Assembly: GCA_016937295.1 (NCBI GenBank)
Contig: JAFGWF010000070.1
Span: 1 to 32,524 of the forward strand
Length of the DNA: 32,524 nucleotides
DNA from: Bacteroidales bacterium
GTDB lineage: Bacteria; Bacteroidota; Bacteroidia; Bacteroidales; UBA1556
Direction: 5' to 3'
A model generated the notes under the pieces. That model worked only from the letters and a program-made list of their open reading frames with translations. It was not told the origin of the DNA and searched no databases. Positions 476 to 16,822 of the stretch are shown piece after piece (the first letter of the stretch is position 1; each line of letters opens with the position of its first letter). Position numbers and translations under genes: made by a program.

Positions 476-3376
476 ATGTTTAAACTTTACAAAATGTTAT
501 CTAACTCCTTTTTACCCCGACATATTGGCCCCAATGCTAATGAGACCAAGTTGATGCTTGACAGCATTGGCGTAAACTCCATAGATGAGCTTATCGACCA
601 AACAATTCCTAAGTCTATTCGCCTGAAAAAACCGCTTCAAATTTCGGAAGCTCTTTCAGAATCGGATTTCCTTAAAAAGATGAAATCCATTGCAGCTTTG
701 AACAAAAACTACCGTTCCTTTATTGGCTTGGGTTATTACGAAACCATCACGCCATCAGTGATTTTGCGAAATATCTTCGAGAATCCCTCATGGTACACTT
801 CCTATACTCCCTATCAGGCTGAGATTTCACAGGGTAGGTTAGAGGCATTGCTTAATTTTCAGACTGTTATCACTGAATTAACCGGTTTACCTATTGCCAA
901 TGCCTCCTTGCTCGACGAAGGCACTGCTGCTGCTGAAGCGCTGTTATTGGCTTATGGTAGTCGCAGTCGTAATGCTGTGAAAGCGGGTCATAATAAGTTT
1001 TTTGTGGACGAAAAAGTTTTTCCACAAACTCTTGAAGTTGTGAAAACCCGTGCTGATTATAAAGGTATTGAGTTGATAGTTGGTAATCCTTGCACCTTTG
1101 AATTTACTGAAGGCGTTTTCGGAGCAATAGTACAATATGCCGATAGTTTTGGAAAAACCCATGACTACACAAGCTTTATCAAAAAAGCCCATGAGCACGA
1201 GGCTGTTGTGGCAATGGCTGCCGACATTTTGAGCTTGACTTTGTTCAAGTCTCCAGGCGAAATGGATGCCGACATGGCTTTTGGCTCCACTCAGCGTTTT
1301 GGAATTCCGATGGGATATGGCGGCCCTCATGCTGCTTTCTTTGCCGTTAAAGAAAGTTTTAAAAGAAATATCCCCGGTCGTATCATTGGTGTTTCGGTAG
1401 ATAAAATGGGAAACCGCGCTTTGAGAATGGCTTTGCAAACTCGTGAACAACATATCAAACGCGAAAAAGCTACTTCAAATATTTGTACTGCTCAAGCGCT
1501 TCTTGCTACTATGGCCGGTATGTATGTGGTTTTTCATGGAAAAGATGGTCTGATTTCCCTATCCGCTCGTATTCACAAAATGGCCTCACTTCTTGCCGCT
1601 GAGCTGGAGAAATTAGGTTATACCGAACTAAACAAAAATTTCTTCGATACAATTCAAATCGAATTGCCTCAAGGTGTTTATATGAATGAGGTTAAAAAGC
1701 GGATGAATGATTTTAATATTAACCTCCGTTATATCGATGATAAGCATCTGACTATCAGCGTTGATGAGGGAAAGAATATGCAAGATTTAAACGATCTTAT
1801 AACCATTTTTGCCGGTCTTAACGGTAAAAATAGAGACTTGATTACCAAAGAAACTTGTATGAGTTTTATGGATTATCAAATTGCTGAGAACTTGAAAAGA
1901 ACAACCGATTTTCTCAATCAGGAGGTATTCCACCTATACCAGTCGGAAACCGCTATGATGCGTTATATCAAGAAGTTGGAAGTACGAGATTTAGCTTTAA
2001 ATACGGCAATGATTCCGCTTGGATCGTGCACTATGAAACTCAATGCAGCAACAGAAATGTTGCCTTTGAGTTGGCCAGAGTGGGGAAATATCCATCCATT
2101 TGTACCTGCCGATCAAGCTCTTGGATATCGGGAGCTAATAGATGAATTAGGTAAAGATTTATGTGAAATTACCGGTTTCGATGGCATCACTTTTCAACCA
2201 AATAGTGGAGCTTCGGGCGAATATGCAGGTTTGGCGGTCATAATGGCCTATCATCGTGCCACTGGAAACCCACATCGAAATATTTGTTTAATACCGGCTT
2301 CAGCTCATGGAACAAATCCCGCCTCAGCCGTCATGGCCGGTATGGAAGTGGTCGTGGTGAAAACCGATGAACATGGCGAAATTGACATTCAGGATTTAAC
2401 TGCCAAAGCTGACCAGTATAAAGAAAACCTTGGCGCTCTGATGGTTACGTATCCTTCAACCCATGGTGTTTTTGAAGAATCTATTTTGGAAGTAATCGAA
2501 ATCATCCATTCTCGTGGAGGTCAAGTTTATATGGATGGAGCCAATATGAATGCCCAGATTGGATACACTAATCCAGGAACTATTGGTGCCGATGTTTGCC
2601 ATCTCAACTTGCACAAAACTTTCGCCATACCTCATGGCGGTGGTGGCCCGGGAGTTGGCCCGATTGCTACAGCCCCTCACCTGACTCCTTTCTTACCTTC
2701 GCATATCTTCTGCGAAAAACGTAATGAAAAGTCAATACCAGCGATAGCATCAGCTCCGTTTGGAAGTGCGTTCGTATTACCTATCAGTTACGCATATATT
2801 AAAATGCTTGGTGCAGATGGATTGAAAGCCGCTACCGATTATGCAATCTTAAATGCAAATTTCATTAAAACTTCGTTAGAAGATAGCTATCCAATTTTAT
2901 ACACAGGTGCTCAAAATCGGGTGGCTCACGAATTGATTTTAGACTGTAATAAGTTCCTGAAAACTGCAGGAGTGGCTGTTATCGACATTGCCAAGCGATT
3001 GATGGACTATGGCTTCCATGCTCCAACGGTGGCTTTCCCTGTTCATGGCACTTTGATGGTTGAGCCCACAGAGTCTGAGCCATATTCCGAAATTATCCGT
3101 TTCATAGAAGCGATGAAAGCTATTCGTAGTGAAATAGCTGAAATAGAAGAGGGTAGAGCAGACCAGAAAGATAATTTGGTCGTAAATGCACCTCATACGG
3201 TTGGCATGGTAACAAATGAGGTGTGGAATCGTCCTTATACTCGTCAGCAAGCTGCATTCCCTGTGGAATCGTTGAAAACCAATAAATTTTGGCCTTTTGT
3301 TACTAAAATTGATGATGGATTTGGCGACCGCAATTTAGTTTGCACCTGCGACCCAATTGAAGATTATGTCAAATAG
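476..3376 (+). CDS. gcvP: Glycine dehydrogenase (aminomethyl-transferring), glycine cleavage P-protein
   Basis: PLP-dependent P-protein of the cytoplasmic glycine cleavage system. It decarboxylates glycine and passes the aminomethyl group to lipoyl-GcvH. At 966 aa it is the single-chain form that fuses the alpha and beta halves found as GcvPA/GcvPB in other bacteria. The N-terminal signature FLPRHIGPN is present, and the PLP-binding motif NLHKTFAIPHGGGGPG places the Schiff-base lysine at about K714. The C-terminal half also shows the conserved PLGSCTMKLN and SAHGTNPASA segments. No gcvH, gcvT or lpd lies in the window, so the partners are encoded elsewhere. The second ATG (494) is an equally good start: it gives MLSNSFLPRHIGP and a more normal leader behind the -7 box at 452. 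Family call is certain; the exact start is not. Confidence 0.98.
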   Translation: MFKLYKMLSNSFLPRHIGPNANETKLMLDSIGVNSIDELIDQTIPKSIRLKKPLQISEALSESDFLKKMKSIAALNKNYRSFIGLGYYETITPSVILRNIFENPSWYTSYTPYQAEISQGRLEALLNFQTVITELTGLPIANASLLDEGTAAAEALLLAYGSRSRNAVKAGHNKFFVDEKVFPQTLEVVKTRADYKGIELIVGNPCTFEFTEGVFGAIVQYADSFGKTHDYTSFIKKAHEHEAVVAMAADILSLTLFKSPGEMDADMAFGSTQRFGIPMGYGGPHAAFFAVKESFKRNIPGRIIGVSVDKMGNRALRMALQTREQHIKREKATSNICTAQALLATMAGMYVVFHGKDGLISLSARIHKMASLLAAELEKLGYTELNKNFFDTIQIELPQGVYMNEVKKRMNDFNINLRYIDDKHLTISVDEGKNMQDLNDLITIFAGLNGKNRDLITKETCMSFMDYQIAENLKRTTDFLNQEVFHLYQSETAMMRYIKKLEVRDLALNTAMIPLGSCTMKLNAATEMLPLSWPEWGNIHPFVPADQALGYRELIDELGKDLCEITGFDGITFQPNSGASGEYAGLAVIMAYHRATGNPHRNICLIPASAHGTNPASAVMAGMEVVVVKTDEHGEIDIQDLTAKADQYKENLGALMVTYPSTHGVFEESILEVIEIIHSRGGQVYMDGANMNAQIGYTNPGTIGADVCHLNLHKTFAIPHGGGGPGVGPIATAPHLTPFLPSHIFCEKRNEKSIPAIASAPFGSAFVLPISYAYIKMLGADGLKAATDYAILNANFIKTSLEDSYPILYTGAQNRVAHELILDCNKFLKTAGVAVIDIAKRLMDYGFHAPTVAFPVHGTLMVEPTESEPYSEIIRFIEAMKAIRSEIAEIEEGRADQKDNLVVNAPHTVGMVTNEVWNRPYTRQQAAFPVESLKTNKFWPFVTKIDDGFGDRNLVCTCDPIEDYVK

Positions 3377-10537: not shown

Positions 10538-11629
10538 CTATTCGTTTAATTTTAAATCAAGCGGATTTGTTACTTCTCCATCTTCTTCAAAACTTCGATT
10601 CGAAACATAATTTCTCCATTTTCCTATCAGTTCAATCATATCGTCAGGCATTTGCGAAAAGAACTCCATTTCCTTTTCTAAAACGGGATGATAAAAGCCC
10701 AATGTTTGTGCATGTAGAGCTTGCCGTGGAAGGATTTTAAAGCAGTTTTGAACGAATTGTTTGTATTTAGTAAAGGTAGTTCCTTTCAAAATTTGATCTC
10801 CACCATACGTTGAATCGCTAAATAATGGATGGCCAATGTGTTTGAAATGAGCTCTAATCTGATGTGTGCGGCCTGTTTCGAGCCGACATTCAACCAACGA
10901 AACGTAGCCAAGTTTTTCCATCACAGAATAATGCGTTACGGCATGTTTCCCATAGCTTCCGTCAGTAAAAACAGTCATCACTCGGCGGTCTTTCAAACTG
11001 CGACCTACATGACCAGTGATAGTTCCATGATCCTCTTTCGGAATACCCCAAACTAAAGCGACATATTGCCGTTTGATGGTGTGATAAAAAAACTGCCTTG
11101 CCAACAATGCCTGAGTACGTTCATCTTTGCCTACGAGAATCAAACCGGAAGTGTCTTTGTCGATTCGGTGCGCTAAAAGTGGCGCTTTGTCGGGGTTTTT
11201 TGCCATCTCATCCTTTAAATGAAAAAGCAAACCGTTGAGCATTGTGCCGGTAAAATTGCCATATCCGGGATGCACTACCAAGCCAGCCGGTTTATCCACA
11301 ACCAAAAGATAATCATCTTCATACACAATATTTAATGGAATATCTTCCGGCAAAACCTCCGTTATTCGTGGAGGCTTACTCATCACGATGGTTATGACAT
11401 CACGCGGTTTTACTCGATAATTTTGCTTTACGGCTTTTCCTTCAACCAAAATATTTCCGGCAGAAGCCGCCATTTGTATTTTGTTCCTGGAAACGTTTTC
11501 AAGCCGTCCCATCAAAAACTTATCAATTCGGAGCATCGTTTGACCCGGATCAACTTCTATGCGGAAATGTTCAAAAAGTTCAACATCCTCTTGATCTTCT
11601 TCTGGGTCTTGATATTTCTCTTCTATCAT
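10538..11629 (-). CDS. rluD: Ribosomal large-subunit pseudouridine synthase, RluD type
   Basis: 363 aa. An S4 RNA-binding domain (about residues 32-85, LRIDKFLMGRLENVSRNKI) is followed by the RsuA/RluA-family catalytic domain. The active-site segment AHRIDKDTSGLILVGKDE places the catalytic Asp near D157, and VVHPGYGN at 118-125 and ETGRTHQIRAH are also family-typical. RluD makes the pseudouridines of helix 69 of 23S rRNA in E. coli, so this is the likely function; RluA/RluC specificity cannot be excluded by eye. The acidic ~30 residue N-terminal tail is common in Bacteroidota homologues. Its ATG overlaps the stop of the upstream T9SS gene (ATGA), showing coupling. Confidence 0.93.
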   Translation of the reverse strand: MIEEKYQDPEEDQEDVELFEHFRIEVDPGQTMLRIDKFLMGRLENVSRNKIQMAASAGNILVEGKAVKQNYRVKPRDVITIVMSKPPRITEVLPEDIPLNIVYEDDYLLVVDKPAGLVVHPGYGNFTGTMLNGLLFHLKDEMAKNPDKAPLLAHRIDKDTSGLILVGKDERTQALLARQFFYHTIKRQYVALVWGIPKEDHGTITGHVGRSLKDRRVMTVFTDGSYGKHAVTHYSVMEKLGYVSLVECRLETGRTHQIRAHFKHIGHPLFSDSTYGGDQILKGTTFTKYKQFVQNCFKILPRQALHAQTLGFYHPVLEKEMEFFSQMPDDMIELIGKWRNYVSNRSFEEDGEVTNPLDLKLNE

Positions 11630-13551
11630 TGAACAACGATTTTCGAGCGCTTAACCAATGTTCCGCTATTTTTCCACACTGAGAGAATATACATTCCTGA
11701 ATTTAAGTCATTTATTTCTAACGAATTGCTAAGTTTAGCTGTTTTGATTACTCGACCACTGATATCCGAAAGAATTATTTTATAATCTGTTGCTTGGCTT
11801 AATCCGTTTTCAATTTGCTCTAGTTGGATAAAAAGGGTGGAGCCGCTTGTGACAGGATTTGGATAAATTTTTAAAGACACCGACTCATCAATAGGTTTTA
11901 TTTCAAGATATGCCTCTTTTTCGTTTCCTAATATCGGGCGAATCATCAAAGCTCCATGAAAATTGGTATTCACCCAACTTCCGCCGGTATTGTAGAAAAT
12001 ACTTTCTGCGCGGTCGTTGTTGAAATCAAAGCCTATATTAAGATTGTCGTTGGTGGTTTGACGCCATCCGACATAAAAAGTTCCGGTGAGATAGATGGGT
12101 GTTGTGAGTTCGTAGGTGTAATACTTAAACAATTGATCTTCAAATTGTGGACGTACGCCGGATTGCTCATAGATAACATTGTTGGGCTGTCCATTATTGT
12201 CGTCCCAAATGGTAAGATAAAAATATTGTTGGTTCGCATTTCCAACGGTTTGATTAAAATAGAATTGAATAGCTTGAAGGCTATCTCCTTGATTTAGTGT
12301 AAATTGATAAGCTAATCGGGCTCCATTATTCGACAATCCATAACCGGCTTCAGGAGTTCCATCATCATAAGAATAGTAGTTATAAAAGCGCTGATAAAAG
12401 CGCATGGTATCATTAGTCCGAATCAAGTCCGGCGGAGGTGTGTTGGATAAAAGTCGGAACATAACTTCAAAATCGGCATATTGAGAAGCAGCCGACTGAA
12501 AGGTATAATTTCCATAATTTGGTGAATAGGTTACCGTTGTATTTGGGTTCATATTGAACGTTGCCGGAAAAGGATTGGCAAATGTAAAACTCTTGTCAAA
12601 CAGGTTTTGTATGGAAAAATATTGGTTAAGGTTTTTAACCGTTGGTCCTAAATCAAGATTTACAAATTTGATAGACGCGTTGACATTGGTAGATGCGGTG
12701 GGATTAGCTTTGTATTGATTCCAAGGCATTGAGGTATAGGAGTTTAACAGAGATCCTATTGGAGTAGTGAAGGCAATATCATTTACGGAGGTGTTTACGA
12801 CCGACCTGTTTCGATCCAAATAAACATAATCTAAATGCCAATGGTCATAAAGTCCTGAACGCCAAGAAGGAATAGTGTTATTCGGGATGCTGGCCTTGTT
12901 AATAAAACGAAAGCGAAAACCGGAATGAAAAAAGATGGAATCGACAACCGGAATAGAAATTTGAAGAAATTCGACACCATATTCCACAACAAAACTGTCG
13001 AGCGGCATTCCTTGGTGAGCCCAAATATTTTTCCATAAATTTAGACTTGGACTAAAAAACTGTAAAAGGAGAGAGTCTTCCTCTTCAGGAGCATTGCCAA
13101 GGCCTTGAGGTTGAATCCAGAAGCTTAAAACAACAGAATCTGAAGGCTGCAATGCCAAAGGAATCGACCCAAAAACACTATCTAAGCGAATAGGATTAGT
13201 GGTAAGCGTGTCGGCAAAATAGGCATACTGACTGATAGTGGGATAGACGCCACCGGTGTCGTTTACCGCATCAAAACTTACGACTCCGATAGTTGGTGGA
13301 TTTATACTAAAGGATTTATTGACATATACATATCTATCGGACCAAAGCTCCTTTTTGGGATACAACAAATTATAGGAGAAATCGTCTGCAAAAGGCAGCG
13401 AAAGCAAGGAGGCCGCTTTACTTTCCTTATTTACCACTTTTGTTTTATTGGCTTTTAGTTCGGGATAGGTGGTTAGATGATTCAACAATTCTTGGCCAAT
13501 CATGTTGAAGCTTAGAAACAGTAAAAAAGCAAATATTACATATTTATACAT
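11626..13551 (-). CDS. Secreted protein with T9SS type A sorting domain, unknown function
   Basis: 641 aa. The signal peptide MYKYVIFAFLLFLSFNMIGQ is followed by ~530 residues rich in aromatic and polar residues, typical of beta-sandwich folds. The SVVLSFWIQPQGLGNAP segment and the region after it resemble a jelly-roll/lectin-like fold, but no active site was recognised. The C-terminal ~90 residues are a type A sorting domain: LKIYPNPVTSGS, IILSDISGRVI, NSGMYILSVW and a basic end RSKIVVQ. It lies 11 nt after the PASTA gene and overlaps rluD by 4 nt. A surface protein inside an otherwise housekeeping operon is notable. Substrate unknown. Confidence 0.85.
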   Translation of the reverse strand: MYKYVIFAFLLFLSFNMIGQELLNHLTTYPELKANKTKVVNKESKAASLLSLPFADDFSYNLLYPKKELWSDRYVYVNKSFSINPPTIGVVSFDAVNDTGGVYPTISQYAYFADTLTTNPIRLDSVFGSIPLALQPSDSVVLSFWIQPQGLGNAPEEEDSLLLQFFSPSLNLWKNIWAHQGMPLDSFVVEYGVEFLQISIPVVDSIFFHSGFRFRFINKASIPNNTIPSWRSGLYDHWHLDYVYLDRNRSVVNTSVNDIAFTTPIGSLLNSYTSMPWNQYKANPTASTNVNASIKFVNLDLGPTVKNLNQYFSIQNLFDKSFTFANPFPATFNMNPNTTVTYSPNYGNYTFQSAASQYADFEVMFRLLSNTPPPDLIRTNDTMRFYQRFYNYYSYDDGTPEAGYGLSNNGARLAYQFTLNQGDSLQAIQFYFNQTVGNANQQYFYLTIWDDNNGQPNNVIYEQSGVRPQFEDQLFKYYTYELTTPIYLTGTFYVGWRQTTNDNLNIGFDFNNDRAESIFYNTGGSWVNTNFHGALMIRPILGNEKEAYLEIKPIDESVSLKIYPNPVTSGSTLFIQLEQIENGLSQATDYKIILSDISGRVIKTAKLSNSLEINDLNSGMYILSVWKNSGTLVKRSKIVVQ

Positions 13552-13562
13552 TGATAATCAGA

Positions 13563-14381
13563 TTACAAAGTGTCAGACATTAAAGTGTCGGGAGCAATTG
13601 TTTTCAAATAGCTCTCAAAGTCAAAGTTTTTATTCGACTTATACCAAACATCAACGGAACTACCAAATTTAGCAATACTTTTATGCGTATAATTGGGAGT
13701 TTGGCGATAAATGCGAACGGTTGAAGTATCGTCGCCGGGCTCAAAAGATTCGATACCCATGTTTAAAGAATACTCATGAAGCTTTTGAATGGCTTGCGAC
13801 CTGGTGAGGCCGATGAGCAAAGGCACCGGCAACAGTTGCTGTCGGTCGCCAAGTCCGAGAACCAAATCAATTGTGGAACCGGCTAAAATCATGGCGCCGG
13901 GGTCAATCTGTTTGCCCTTGTTATATTGTCGCAAAACGGCATTCTTGGCAATATCCGGTTCATAAGTGAGTTTTCCAACCTTCAAATCGTAAGTTTGAAG
14001 CAGGGAGGTAGCACTTCGAAGCGACAAGTCTTTCAATTCCGGCATTGCAACCATCTTAGGGTTCATGGCAACTAAAGTCAAGTAGATTTTTCGCCCTTCC
14101 TTGACGAAGGATTCCGGAGCTGGATCTTGATTAATAATCGTTCCTCTCTCCTTTGTAGGGTCATAAATAGAATCGATGATTAAAAAACTGAATTTCGAAA
14201 ATTCCGGATTATTCTCCAACTCTTCGTAGTATAATCCCGAAAAATCGGGTACCGGTGTTGCTTGCCCGTGACGGGTGAAATTGTTGACTATGGTGACAGT
14301 TAGCCAAATTAGAAAAACTACCAATAAAGCCATCAAAGCTAAATGAATGTAAAATCGCTTGTTTTTTAACAACGAAAGCAT
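13563..14381 (-). CDS. Membrane-anchored PASTA-domain protein (no kinase domain)
   Basis: 272 aa. A short cytoplasmic N-terminus is followed by one TM helix (about residues 12-33) and three extracytoplasmic PASTA domains (about 42-110, 112-180, 182-252). Hallmarks are TPVPDFSGLYYEE, INQDPAPES, GAMILAGSTIDLVLGLG and VPLLIGLTRSQAI. PASTA domains bind peptidoglycan stem peptides in Firmicutes and Actinobacteria kinases and in PBP2x; here there is neither kinase nor transpeptidase. In Bacteroidota such stand-alone proteins are common but poorly studied, and a cell-wall role is inferred. It is the first gene of the operon, with a -7 box about 31 nt upstream. Confidence 0.9.
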   Translation of the reverse strand: MLSLLKNKRFYIHLALMALLVVFLIWLTVTIVNNFTRHGQATPVPDFSGLYYEELENNPEFSKFSFLIIDSIYDPTKERGTIINQDPAPESFVKEGRKIYLTLVAMNPKMVAMPELKDLSLRSATSLLQTYDLKVGKLTYEPDIAKNAVLRQYNKGKQIDPGAMILAGSTIDLVLGLGDRQQLLPVPLLIGLTRSQAIQKLHEYSLNMGIESFEPGDDTSTVRIYRQTPNYTHKSIAKFGSSVDVWYKSNKNFDFESYLKTIAPDTLMSDTL

Positions 14382-14476: not shown

Positions 14477-14506
14477 TGTCCACTATTAATTTTTTATTAA
14501 TTTAGC
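14477..14506 (+). promoter_or_regulatory. Promoter TTG-N19-TAATTTAG for the glutaredoxin-like lipoprotein
   Basis: TTG (14477-14479) is followed after exactly 19 nt by TAATTTAG (14499-14506). This fits the Bacteroidetes layout TTG-N19-TAnnTTTG with one mismatch. The ATG follows 23 nt later at 14530. Confidence 0.6.
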
Positions 14507-14529: not shown

Positions 14530-14904
14530 ATGAAAAATTTACTCTCATTTGTAATGGTCTTATTGGTGGCTTTAAGCACTACAACATTCAGCTCATGCAG
14601 CAAAGATGATGATGAGGCCGAAGACCCAAAACCCACATGGACTATTTATATTTATGGCCGTCCTACATGTGGTATCTGCACAGCATTTAAACAGTCTTTG
14701 GATGAGGAAAGTATTCCTTATACCTTTTATAATGTGGACGATGAGCCGGATAAGAATCAAGAAATGTGGGATAAACTGAATGCTGCCGGTTTAGGTGGTG
14801 GATCTGTAGGTTTGCCAGTTGTTGATGTTATGGTAGATGGGGTTTCTCATGTATTCATTCGACCCGACCGAGATATTGATATTAAGCCATTAATTGGTTT
14901 ATAA
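14530..14904 (+). CDS. Glutaredoxin/thioredoxin-fold lipoprotein, probably surface exposed
   Basis: 124 aa. A lipoprotein signal peptide ends TTFSSC, with lipid-bearing C23, immediately followed by SKDDDE. That matches the acidic lipoprotein export signal reported to send Bacteroidetes lipoproteins to the cell surface. After a short linker comes a glutaredoxin-like fold. TIYIYGRPTCGIC carries the redox CxxC pair (about C47/C50), VGLPVVDVMVDG carries the cis-proline, and the end resembles the last helix of Grx. It would do thiol-disulfide exchange or bind a small thiol outside the cytoplasm. The gene is monocistronic with its own promoter and terminator. Redox partner unknown. Confidence 0.85.
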   Translation: MKNLLSFVMVLLVALSTTTFSSCSKDDDEAEDPKPTWTIYIYGRPTCGICTAFKQSLDEESIPYTFYNVDDEPDKNQEMWDKLNAAGLGGGSVGLPVVDVMVDGVSHVFIRPDRDIDIKPLIGL

Positions 14905-14923
14905 TTTACACTTCTTTAAATGA

Positions 14924-14959
14924 AAAACGGAAACTTGATGCAGGTTTCCGTTTTTTTTT
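14924..14959. terminator. Bidirectional rho-independent terminator
   Basis: AAACGGAAAC pairs with GTTTCCGTTT around a TTGATGCAG loop and is followed by nine T on the plus strand. On the minus strand the stem is followed by five T, so it can also end the ygiQ operon, whose stop is at 14984. It closes the lipoprotein gene (stop 14904). Confidence 0.9.
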
Positions 14960-14983: not shown

Positions 14984-16822
14984 CTATTTATCTTTGAGTA
15001 GTTTATTTGCCAGTTCAATTTGTCCTGCCTCTTTGAGGGTTTTCCGTATTTTCGACTTAAACTCATTTTTATACCAAAAAAAGAAGTCGCGCTGAGCCAA
15101 TTTATCCTCTTTGCTTATTGGCGTGTAAATCTTTTTCAAAGTATAAGGGTGATAGCCTGAATAATAAATTACAGTTGCAACCGTCATTGGTGTTGGAGTA
15201 AAATCCTGAACTTGTTCCAACTTAAATCCTAACTCCTTGGTTTTTAGTGCCAAATCGGCCATGTCTTTGACTTCACTTCCGGGATGGGAAGAGATAAAAT
15301 ATGGGATGAGTTCCTGTTGCAAACCGGCTTCTTCATTGGCTTTCTCAAAAGCTTTTTTGAATTTGTAAAACATGTCGAAAGATGGTTTACGCATTATTTT
15401 GAGCACATCAGGGGAGGTGTGTTCGGGGGCAACTTTCAGGCGACCTGAAACATGGTATTTTGCTAAGTCAAGAATGTAACGATTAGCAGTGTTTTTGTCT
15501 TCTTCCGAAAGTTTATCGTCCACAAGCAAATCATAGCGAATGCCGCTTCCCACAAAAGCTTTTTTTATGCCTGGCATGGCTCTCACCGATCTGTAAACAT
15601 CTAAAAGCGCTTCGTGACTTGTATCCAAATTTGGGCATATTTTCGGGTGAATGCAGCTTGGTCGCAAGCAGCGGTCACACTCATCAAGATTTTTTCCTTT
15701 CATGCGGTACATATTTGCCGATGGCCCACCAAGGTCGCTGATATACCCTTTAAAATCAGGCATTTTTACGATATTCTCGACTTCTTTTAAGATAGAAGCT
15801 TTCGACCTGTTGGCAACAAATTTTCCCTGATGTGCCGAAATAGTACAAAAAGCACAACCGCCAAAACATCCTCGGTGCATATTCACCGAAAACTTAATCA
15901 TTTCGTAGGCCGGAATAGGATCTTTTTTGCGATATCGTGGATGAGGCATGCGAGTGTATGGCAAGTCAAAACTGGCATCCATTTCCGTTTCAGTCATGGT
16001 TGGATAGGGGGGAAAAACGATGAGAAAGTCGTTATCCGCTTTTTGAATCAGCAAATCAGCGCGGGTGCTATTTGACTGTTGTTCAATATGTTTAAAATTA
16101 GCTGCATAAAGCATTGGGTCGTTTAAGCAATCCTGATGTGAGTTTAGCAATAGGTGTTTTTGTTTGGCCATAATGCGATTTGCTTCATCAGCATCAGCTC
16201 GTATTACCGTTTGGCGAATATTTCTCAGATTTTTGAATGGGACACCTTTTTCTAAAAATTTAAGCAAATCGCGCAAAGGTTGCTCACCCATGCCATAGAT
16301 TAGCAGGTCGGCATCGGAATCCATCAATATACCTGGTTTCAAACGGTCGCTCCAGTAGTCGTAGTGGGTAAGTCGTCGCAACGAAGCTTCCACGCCACCC
16401 ATCACCACCGGAATATCGGGATAAAGTTTTTTCAGAATTTTACTATAAACAACAGAGGCATAATCAGGCCGAAATCCGGCTTTGTTGCCGGGGGTATAGG
16501 CATCGTTGGAGCGTAGGCGGCGATTGGCAGTATAATGATTTACCATGGAGTCCATGCTTCCTGCCGTTACACCAAAAAACAGACGTGGTTTGCCAAATTT
16601 TGTAAAATCTCGTAGGTCGTCACGCCAGTTGGGCTGAGGAACTATGGCCACTTTGAACCCATAATGTTGCATGATTCGGCCAACAACTGCCGGGCCGAAA
16701 GCGGGATGATCGATATACGCATCGCCACTAAAAAGAATAATATCCGGCTGCTCCCAACCTGCTCGGCGCATTTCATCGGGAGTGGTTGGCAACCAGTCGG
16801 TGATTGGACGATTATCAAGCAT
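14984..16822 (-). CDS. ygiQ: YgiQ family radical SAM protein
   Basis: 612 aa, near the usual length for YgiQ (UPF0313). The N-terminal B12-binding-like region starts LPTTPDEMRRAGWEQPDIIL and contains FSGDAYIDHPAFG. The radical SAM core has the CxxxCxxC cluster motif in HRGCFGGCAFCTISAHQG (about C319, C323, C326), followed by further cysteines near residue 385 (DECDRCLRPSC) and SGIRYDLL. The reaction is not established; radical SAM chemistry with a 4Fe-4S cluster is certain. The start overlaps the fbp stop by 8 bp (ATGCTTGA), so it is translated from the fbp transcript. It is the last gene of the kinase/barrel/fbp/ygiQ operon. Confidence 0.96.
   Translation of the reverse strand: MLDNRPITDWLPTTPDEMRRAGWEQPDIILFSGDAYIDHPAFGPAVVGRIMQHYGFKVAIVPQPNWRDDLRDFTKFGKPRLFFGVTAGSMDSMVNHYTANRRLRSNDAYTPGNKAGFRPDYASVVYSKILKKLYPDIPVVMGGVEASLRRLTHYDYWSDRLKPGILMDSDADLLIYGMGEQPLRDLLKFLEKGVPFKNLRNIRQTVIRADADEANRIMAKQKHLLLNSHQDCLNDPMLYAANFKHIEQQSNSTRADLLIQKADNDFLIVFPPYPTMTETEMDASFDLPYTRMPHPRYRKKDPIPAYEMIKFSVNMHRGCFGGCAFCTISAHQGKFVANRSKASILKEVENIVKMPDFKGYISDLGGPSANMYRMKGKNLDECDRCLRPSCIHPKICPNLDTSHEALLDVYRSVRAMPGIKKAFVGSGIRYDLLVDDKLSEEDKNTANRYILDLAKYHVSGRLKVAPEHTSPDVLKIMRKPSFDMFYKFKKAFEKANEEAGLQQELIPYFISSHPGSEVKDMADLALKTKELGFKLEQVQDFTPTPMTVATVIYYSGYHPYTLKKIYTPISKEDKLAQRDFFFWYKNEFKSKIRKTLKEAGQIELANKLLKDK

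Follow-up and report, generated by a model that had tools for sequence, protein, structure and literature searches.

The gene at 14530-14904 (+) of the window, by which we mean the whole 32,524-nucleotide stretch of Bacteroidales DNA that was analysed, encodes a 124-residue lipoprotein in which a conserved acidic tag follows the lipid-anchor cysteine and precedes a glutaredoxin-type domain with a conserved CxxC. We propose that this is a small thiol/disulfide exchange protein held outside the outer membrane, where it would cycle with environmental thiols and disulfides or with client proteins, and we give this reading about an even chance (roughly 0.5). Its location at the cell surface is well predicted from the N-terminal sequence, and we infer its catalysis, the direction of electron flow and its partners. 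A sequence-only reading of the window had already suggested a surface-displayed glutaredoxin-like lipoprotein; that main suggestion is a reasonable one and has gained further, if partial, support, and is still a prediction. If it holds, a surface-anchored CxxC redoxin with no known electron source would either be a catalyst of exchange with thiols from the surroundings or assist exported proteins in folding.

A single-gene unit in a small, patchy family

The reading frame starts with ATG and is a real, single-gene unit, as attested by its profile match, its relatives and the selection acting on it. Compared with its counterpart in a genus relative (Bacteroidales bacterium UBA6267), which served as the reference, it has 83% nucleotide and 94% protein identity, and dN/dS is 0.038 with dS at 1.26, close to saturation, indicating strong purifying selection. 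Its neighbours, both on the minus strand, are a PASTA-domain gene (13563-14381) on one side and a YgiQ-family radical SAM gene (14984-16822) on the other. Downstream, a terminator-like hairpin with a T-run at 14922..14959 (+) has a predicted fold of -18.8 kcal/mol (z = -5.7) and was missed by a simple terminator scan; being symmetric, it may act for the convergent YgiQ gene as well. Upstream, the alignment with the genus relative shows that TAATTTAG at 14498..14505 (+) is kept, and we tentatively regard it as a -7 element, for which the Bacteroidota consensus is TAnnTTTG. The nearby gene 11626-13551 (-) encodes a 641-residue protein with a type A sorting domain of the type IX secretion system (T9SS), so the host has T9SS cargo.

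The gene family is rare and patchy. Of 295 genomes searched in the order, 6 have it, with 7 proteins in all, one of them a tandem paralogue; the six members other than the window protein come from five other genomes, and the family spans three genus-level lineages. Orthologues are 40-56% identical and the divergent tandem paralogue 34%; the two tandem copies in its genome (L012:1022-1408 and 1471-1845 (-), genome G253) both carry the tag and the CxxC. The gene was present in 3/3 genomes examined of family f51 and absent from three further genomes of the genus to which the window belongs, and a profile of the mature domain run against 393 genomes of the order gave no additional true member. Profile searches of 395 genomes of the class and 396 of the phylum returned, apart from the window protein itself, two distant matches only, both rejected: a 202-residue protein from another class (L017:1423-2031 (-), genome G731), which carries a Sec-type signal without a lipobox and ends in a glutaredoxin-like domain (CTRC) similar to those of the family, and a sequence with a stop inside the matched region (L018). 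Weak order-level matches (L090-L096) are ordinary cytoplasmic thioredoxin-glutaredoxin fusions. We also set aside a mobile or viral origin, as no relatives were found among IMG/VR contigs, plasmids or phages. Gene neighbourhood was tried as a guide to a partner and nothing was inferred from it, since the neighbours vary between lineages and none is conserved: in the window genus they encode the PASTA protein and YgiQ, two genomes of another family have rpsL close by, and a third has what we take to be an endonuclease IV-like gene.

The lipoprotein signal and the export tag

Residues 1-22 (14530..14595, +) form a type II signal peptide that ends in TTFSS before the lipobox cysteine, Cys23 (codon 14596-14598), which is invariant in 7/7 members; the earlier identification of a lipoprotein is supported. 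The cysteine is followed by SKDDDE, and together they make up a C-x-K-(D/E)3 export signal at 14596..14616 (+). A short acidic, proline-containing linker, AEDPKPTW (14617..14640, +), leads into the domain, and past the tag this linker differs freely in length and sequence among the members. All seven have C-X-K-(D/E)2-X after the lipobox cysteine, in the forms SKDDD, SKDED, EKEEE, EKDEE, QKEED, DKEED and KKDED; the seven are related, and for tag conservation they amount to about three independent lineages. Measurements in Capnocytophaga canimorsus gave C-X-K-(D/E)2-X as the optimum export signal, with X-K-(D/E)3 in MucG, and this signal is sufficient to surface-expose a periplasm-facing lipoprotein (PMC5080379). 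In Bacteroides thetaiotaomicron, CS(D/E)2 is needed for exposure of SusG (PMC6222051). The sequence-only reading had likened SKDDDE to the signals of both genera; the likeness to the Capnocytophaga optimum is borne out in every member, but the Bacteroides consensus (C-S-(D/E)2 or SDDDD) fits less well.

To gauge how common such tags are in the host, we used 542 kb of its genome, comprising the window and 60 further stretches, a few of which were picked because they surround earlier hits. A simple lipoprotein scan of this sample gave 38 candidates, some surely false, and C-x-K-(D/E)2 was present in 7/38, the window protein included. Among the seven is a LamG-domain lipoprotein encoded beside a SusD gene (CNKDDEEDD); outside the 38 candidates, the other SusD gene is followed, at the SusE position, by a gene whose product has CKKDDEDDD. 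Two host lipoproteins expected to face inward, a DUF4292 protein that we take to be LolB-like (CKSRKPEAP) and a thioredoxin lipoprotein (CSSQVENAG), are without the tag. Because of this low background and these untagged proteins expected to face inward, the presence of the tag in 7/7 members is informative.

Two other proteins from the same genome deserve mention. A rhodanese lipoprotein (L035:13369-14403 (-), contig C5; PF00581, E 1e-18) begins its mature part with CVKDDDDDD and may be a further sulfur-chemistry protein displayed at this cell's surface. The untagged thioredoxin lipoprotein (L030:7421-8080 (+), contig C178; also L021) has a gene that immediately precedes the one for a closely similar thioredoxin of cytoplasmic type; this arrangement suggests a duplication, with a lipoprotein signal on one of the two copies.

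These data bear on a different placement, in which the protein is an outer-membrane lipoprotein facing the periplasm, the acidic stretch is merely a linker, and electrons come from DsbD via the periplasmic thioredoxin lipoprotein. The host does have a DsbD-type protein and such a thioredoxin lipoprotein, and surface export by the tag is a prediction for this lineage, in which the sequence is not identical to the CS(D/E)2 motif of B. thetaiotaomicron. However, a mere linker would not readily account for K at +3 and acidic residues at +4 to +6 in 7/7 members while the sequence immediately following varies, nor for the lack of a tag on the host lipoproteins expected to face inward. We therefore consider a periplasmic orientation unlikely.

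The glutaredoxin-type domain and its possible chemistry

Profile, fold and alignment evidence place a glutaredoxin/NrdH-type domain at residues 38-122 (14641..14895, +), with a predicted element order of beta-alpha-beta-alpha-beta-beta and then a weak C-terminal helix. Pfam PF00462 (Glutaredoxin) matches residues 40-98 at E 3.8e-9 (37.1 bits against a cut-off of 22.9), and all 7 members match it at E <= 0.01. The active site is C47-G-I-C50 (14668..14679, +), and the only cysteines of the window protein beyond the lipid-bearing one are these two. In the loop L95-P96-V-V-D99 (14812..14826, +), L95, P96, V98 and D99 are invariant, and Pro96, judging by its position, is probably the cis-proline. 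The protein thus has the CxxC (or CxxS) and cis-proline that mark the glutaredoxin superfamily, as CGIC and LP; the first active-site cysteine, an arginine at -3 from it and the LP are invariant in 7/7. Structure models were built from two sequences, those of the window protein and its genus relative, and have low confidence (mean pLDDT 53 and 64.5); a fold search with them gave no match at E <= 0.001, so their agreement with what the sequence shows is weak. NrdH 1r7h is both the best fold match and the nearest solved sequence. The glutaredoxin-like fold seen by the sequence-only reading is supported, but the domain does not resemble a glutathione-type glutaredoxin. In classical glutaredoxins glutathione is bound by TVP and GG-x-D motifs; here the cis-proline site reads GLP, and there is no GG-x-D-type motif downstream.

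The sequence-only reading had looked to homologues keeping both the acidic motif and the CxxC. The tag and the first cysteine, the nucleophile, are kept in 7/7, but the second cysteine is present in 6/7 only: one member (L014:1471-1848 (+), genome G160) retains the tag and has CTFT, a change from cysteine to threonine that is impossible by a single base change. It is a natural monothiol-type variant, and on this sequence evidence two-cysteine chemistry would not be strictly required in the family.

The sequence-only reading had noted that many Bacteroidota lack glutathione, and the host data are in line with this. The genome is about 92% complete, so missing genes are not proven absent; it yielded no match at E <= 0.01 to glutathione synthetase (GSH-S_ATP), the glutathione-making enzyme that was searched for, and neither BshC, for bacillithiol, nor VKOR was found. 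What it does have is a separate cytoplasmic thioredoxin-glutaredoxin fusion besides the DsbD-type protein and the thioredoxin lipoprotein. Redox proteins normally draw their electrons from NADPH if cytoplasmic and from DsbD if periplasmic, and we know of no electron path across the outer membrane, nor of a reducing system that reaches the cell surface. DsbD is known to reduce only the periplasm, and so the redox proteins found in the host would not reduce a surface CxxC.

For the surface exchange protein that we favour, we envisage the following sequence of events. After synthesis as a lipoprotein, the protein would be transported to the outer membrane and turned to its outer face owing to the C-x-K-(D/E)3 tag. 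Cys47 would then attack disulfides, either in small molecules or in surface or secreted proteins nearby, and the mixed disulfide would be resolved by Cys50. Because no glutathione synthetase was seen and no electron path across the outer membrane is known to us, cycling would most likely proceed by equilibration with environmental thiols and disulfides, such as cysteine and sulfide, or with clients. Its role would be that of a shuffling or quality-control catalyst and not of an NADPH-fed reductase.

The protein might instead keep the glutaredoxin fold without redox cycling, as a surface sensor or a binder of metal, heme or sulfur compounds. The CTFT member is consistent with such a role, the rhodanese with the same tag suggests sulfur chemistry at the surface, and HBP35, a Bacteroidota surface protein of thioredoxin fold, binds heme, through another region (PMC2907840). 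We nevertheless think a binding role improbable: extra conserved cysteines or histidines were sought among the members and none was found, which leaves metal binding, one of the options first raised for this protein, with no specific support, and the CxxC and cis-Pro loop are retained as in catalytic redoxins. Slightly less probable again is a disulfide isomerase or oxidase that helps to fold surface proteins or T9SS cargo once these are outside the outer membrane, for although the nearby T9SS sorting domain indicates that secreted proteins exist, and the Bacteroidota BAM complex has an extracellular component with a PPI domain, BamJ (PMC12578637), there is no conserved genetic linkage to clients, a dedicated oxidant is not evident given that no VKOR was found, and the family is too rare for a general role.

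More speculatively, the surface exchange protein could be part of a dedicated extracellular thiol/disulfide system in some Bacteroidales, powered by thiols from the environment instead of a reductant made by the cell, and could act outside the outer membrane with, for example, the export-tagged rhodanese lipoprotein of this genome or on newly exported surface and T9SS proteins. We hold this wider system to be rather improbable.

Comparison with known redoxins and surface lipoproteins

The closest subfamilies are NrdH, mycoredoxin, YruB and Uxx-star (TIGR02194, TIGR02200, TIGR02196, NF041212), which share the glutaredoxin fold, the placement of the CxxC and a PVV-type cis-Pro loop; in the alignment with 1r7h the likeness to NrdH spans the PVV loop up to an RPxR segment near the C terminus. 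They are the best-scoring NCBIfam models for the window protein, at about 25-33 bits, but this falls far short of their cut-offs of 66-100, and the other members match them weakly. Unlike these proteins, the window protein is an exported lipoprotein, has a GGG insertion before the cis-proline and is without the WSGF motif. NrdH is normally served by thioredoxin reductase. With classical Grx1 and Grx3 the protein shares PF00462, a basic residue at -3 from the first cysteine and the CxxC itself, but it has CGIC where they have CPYC, and it is predicted to lie outside the cytoplasm.

A literature search for a surface glutaredoxin lipoprotein or a periplasmic glutaredoxin gave none matching the family, and a paper on lipoproteins of outer-membrane vesicles (OMVs), searched for this purpose, names no thioredoxin or glutaredoxin (PMC6222051). 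The nearest precedent is HBP35 of Porphyromonas gingivalis, a surface thioredoxin with thioredoxin activity in vitro (PMC2907840). As predicted for the window protein, it lies at the surface of a Bacteroidota cell and carries a CxxC domain, here of thioredoxin type, but it is a larger, heme-binding protein that is exported by another route, through a C-terminal domain and the T9SS, and has no lipoprotein tag. Conversely, SusG, MucG and SusD-associated surface lipoproteins have the same N-terminal anchor and tag as the window protein, but these are glycan-acquisition proteins and hydrolases, unlike the redoxin described here. The domain is known and the tag is known; the novelty is their combination.
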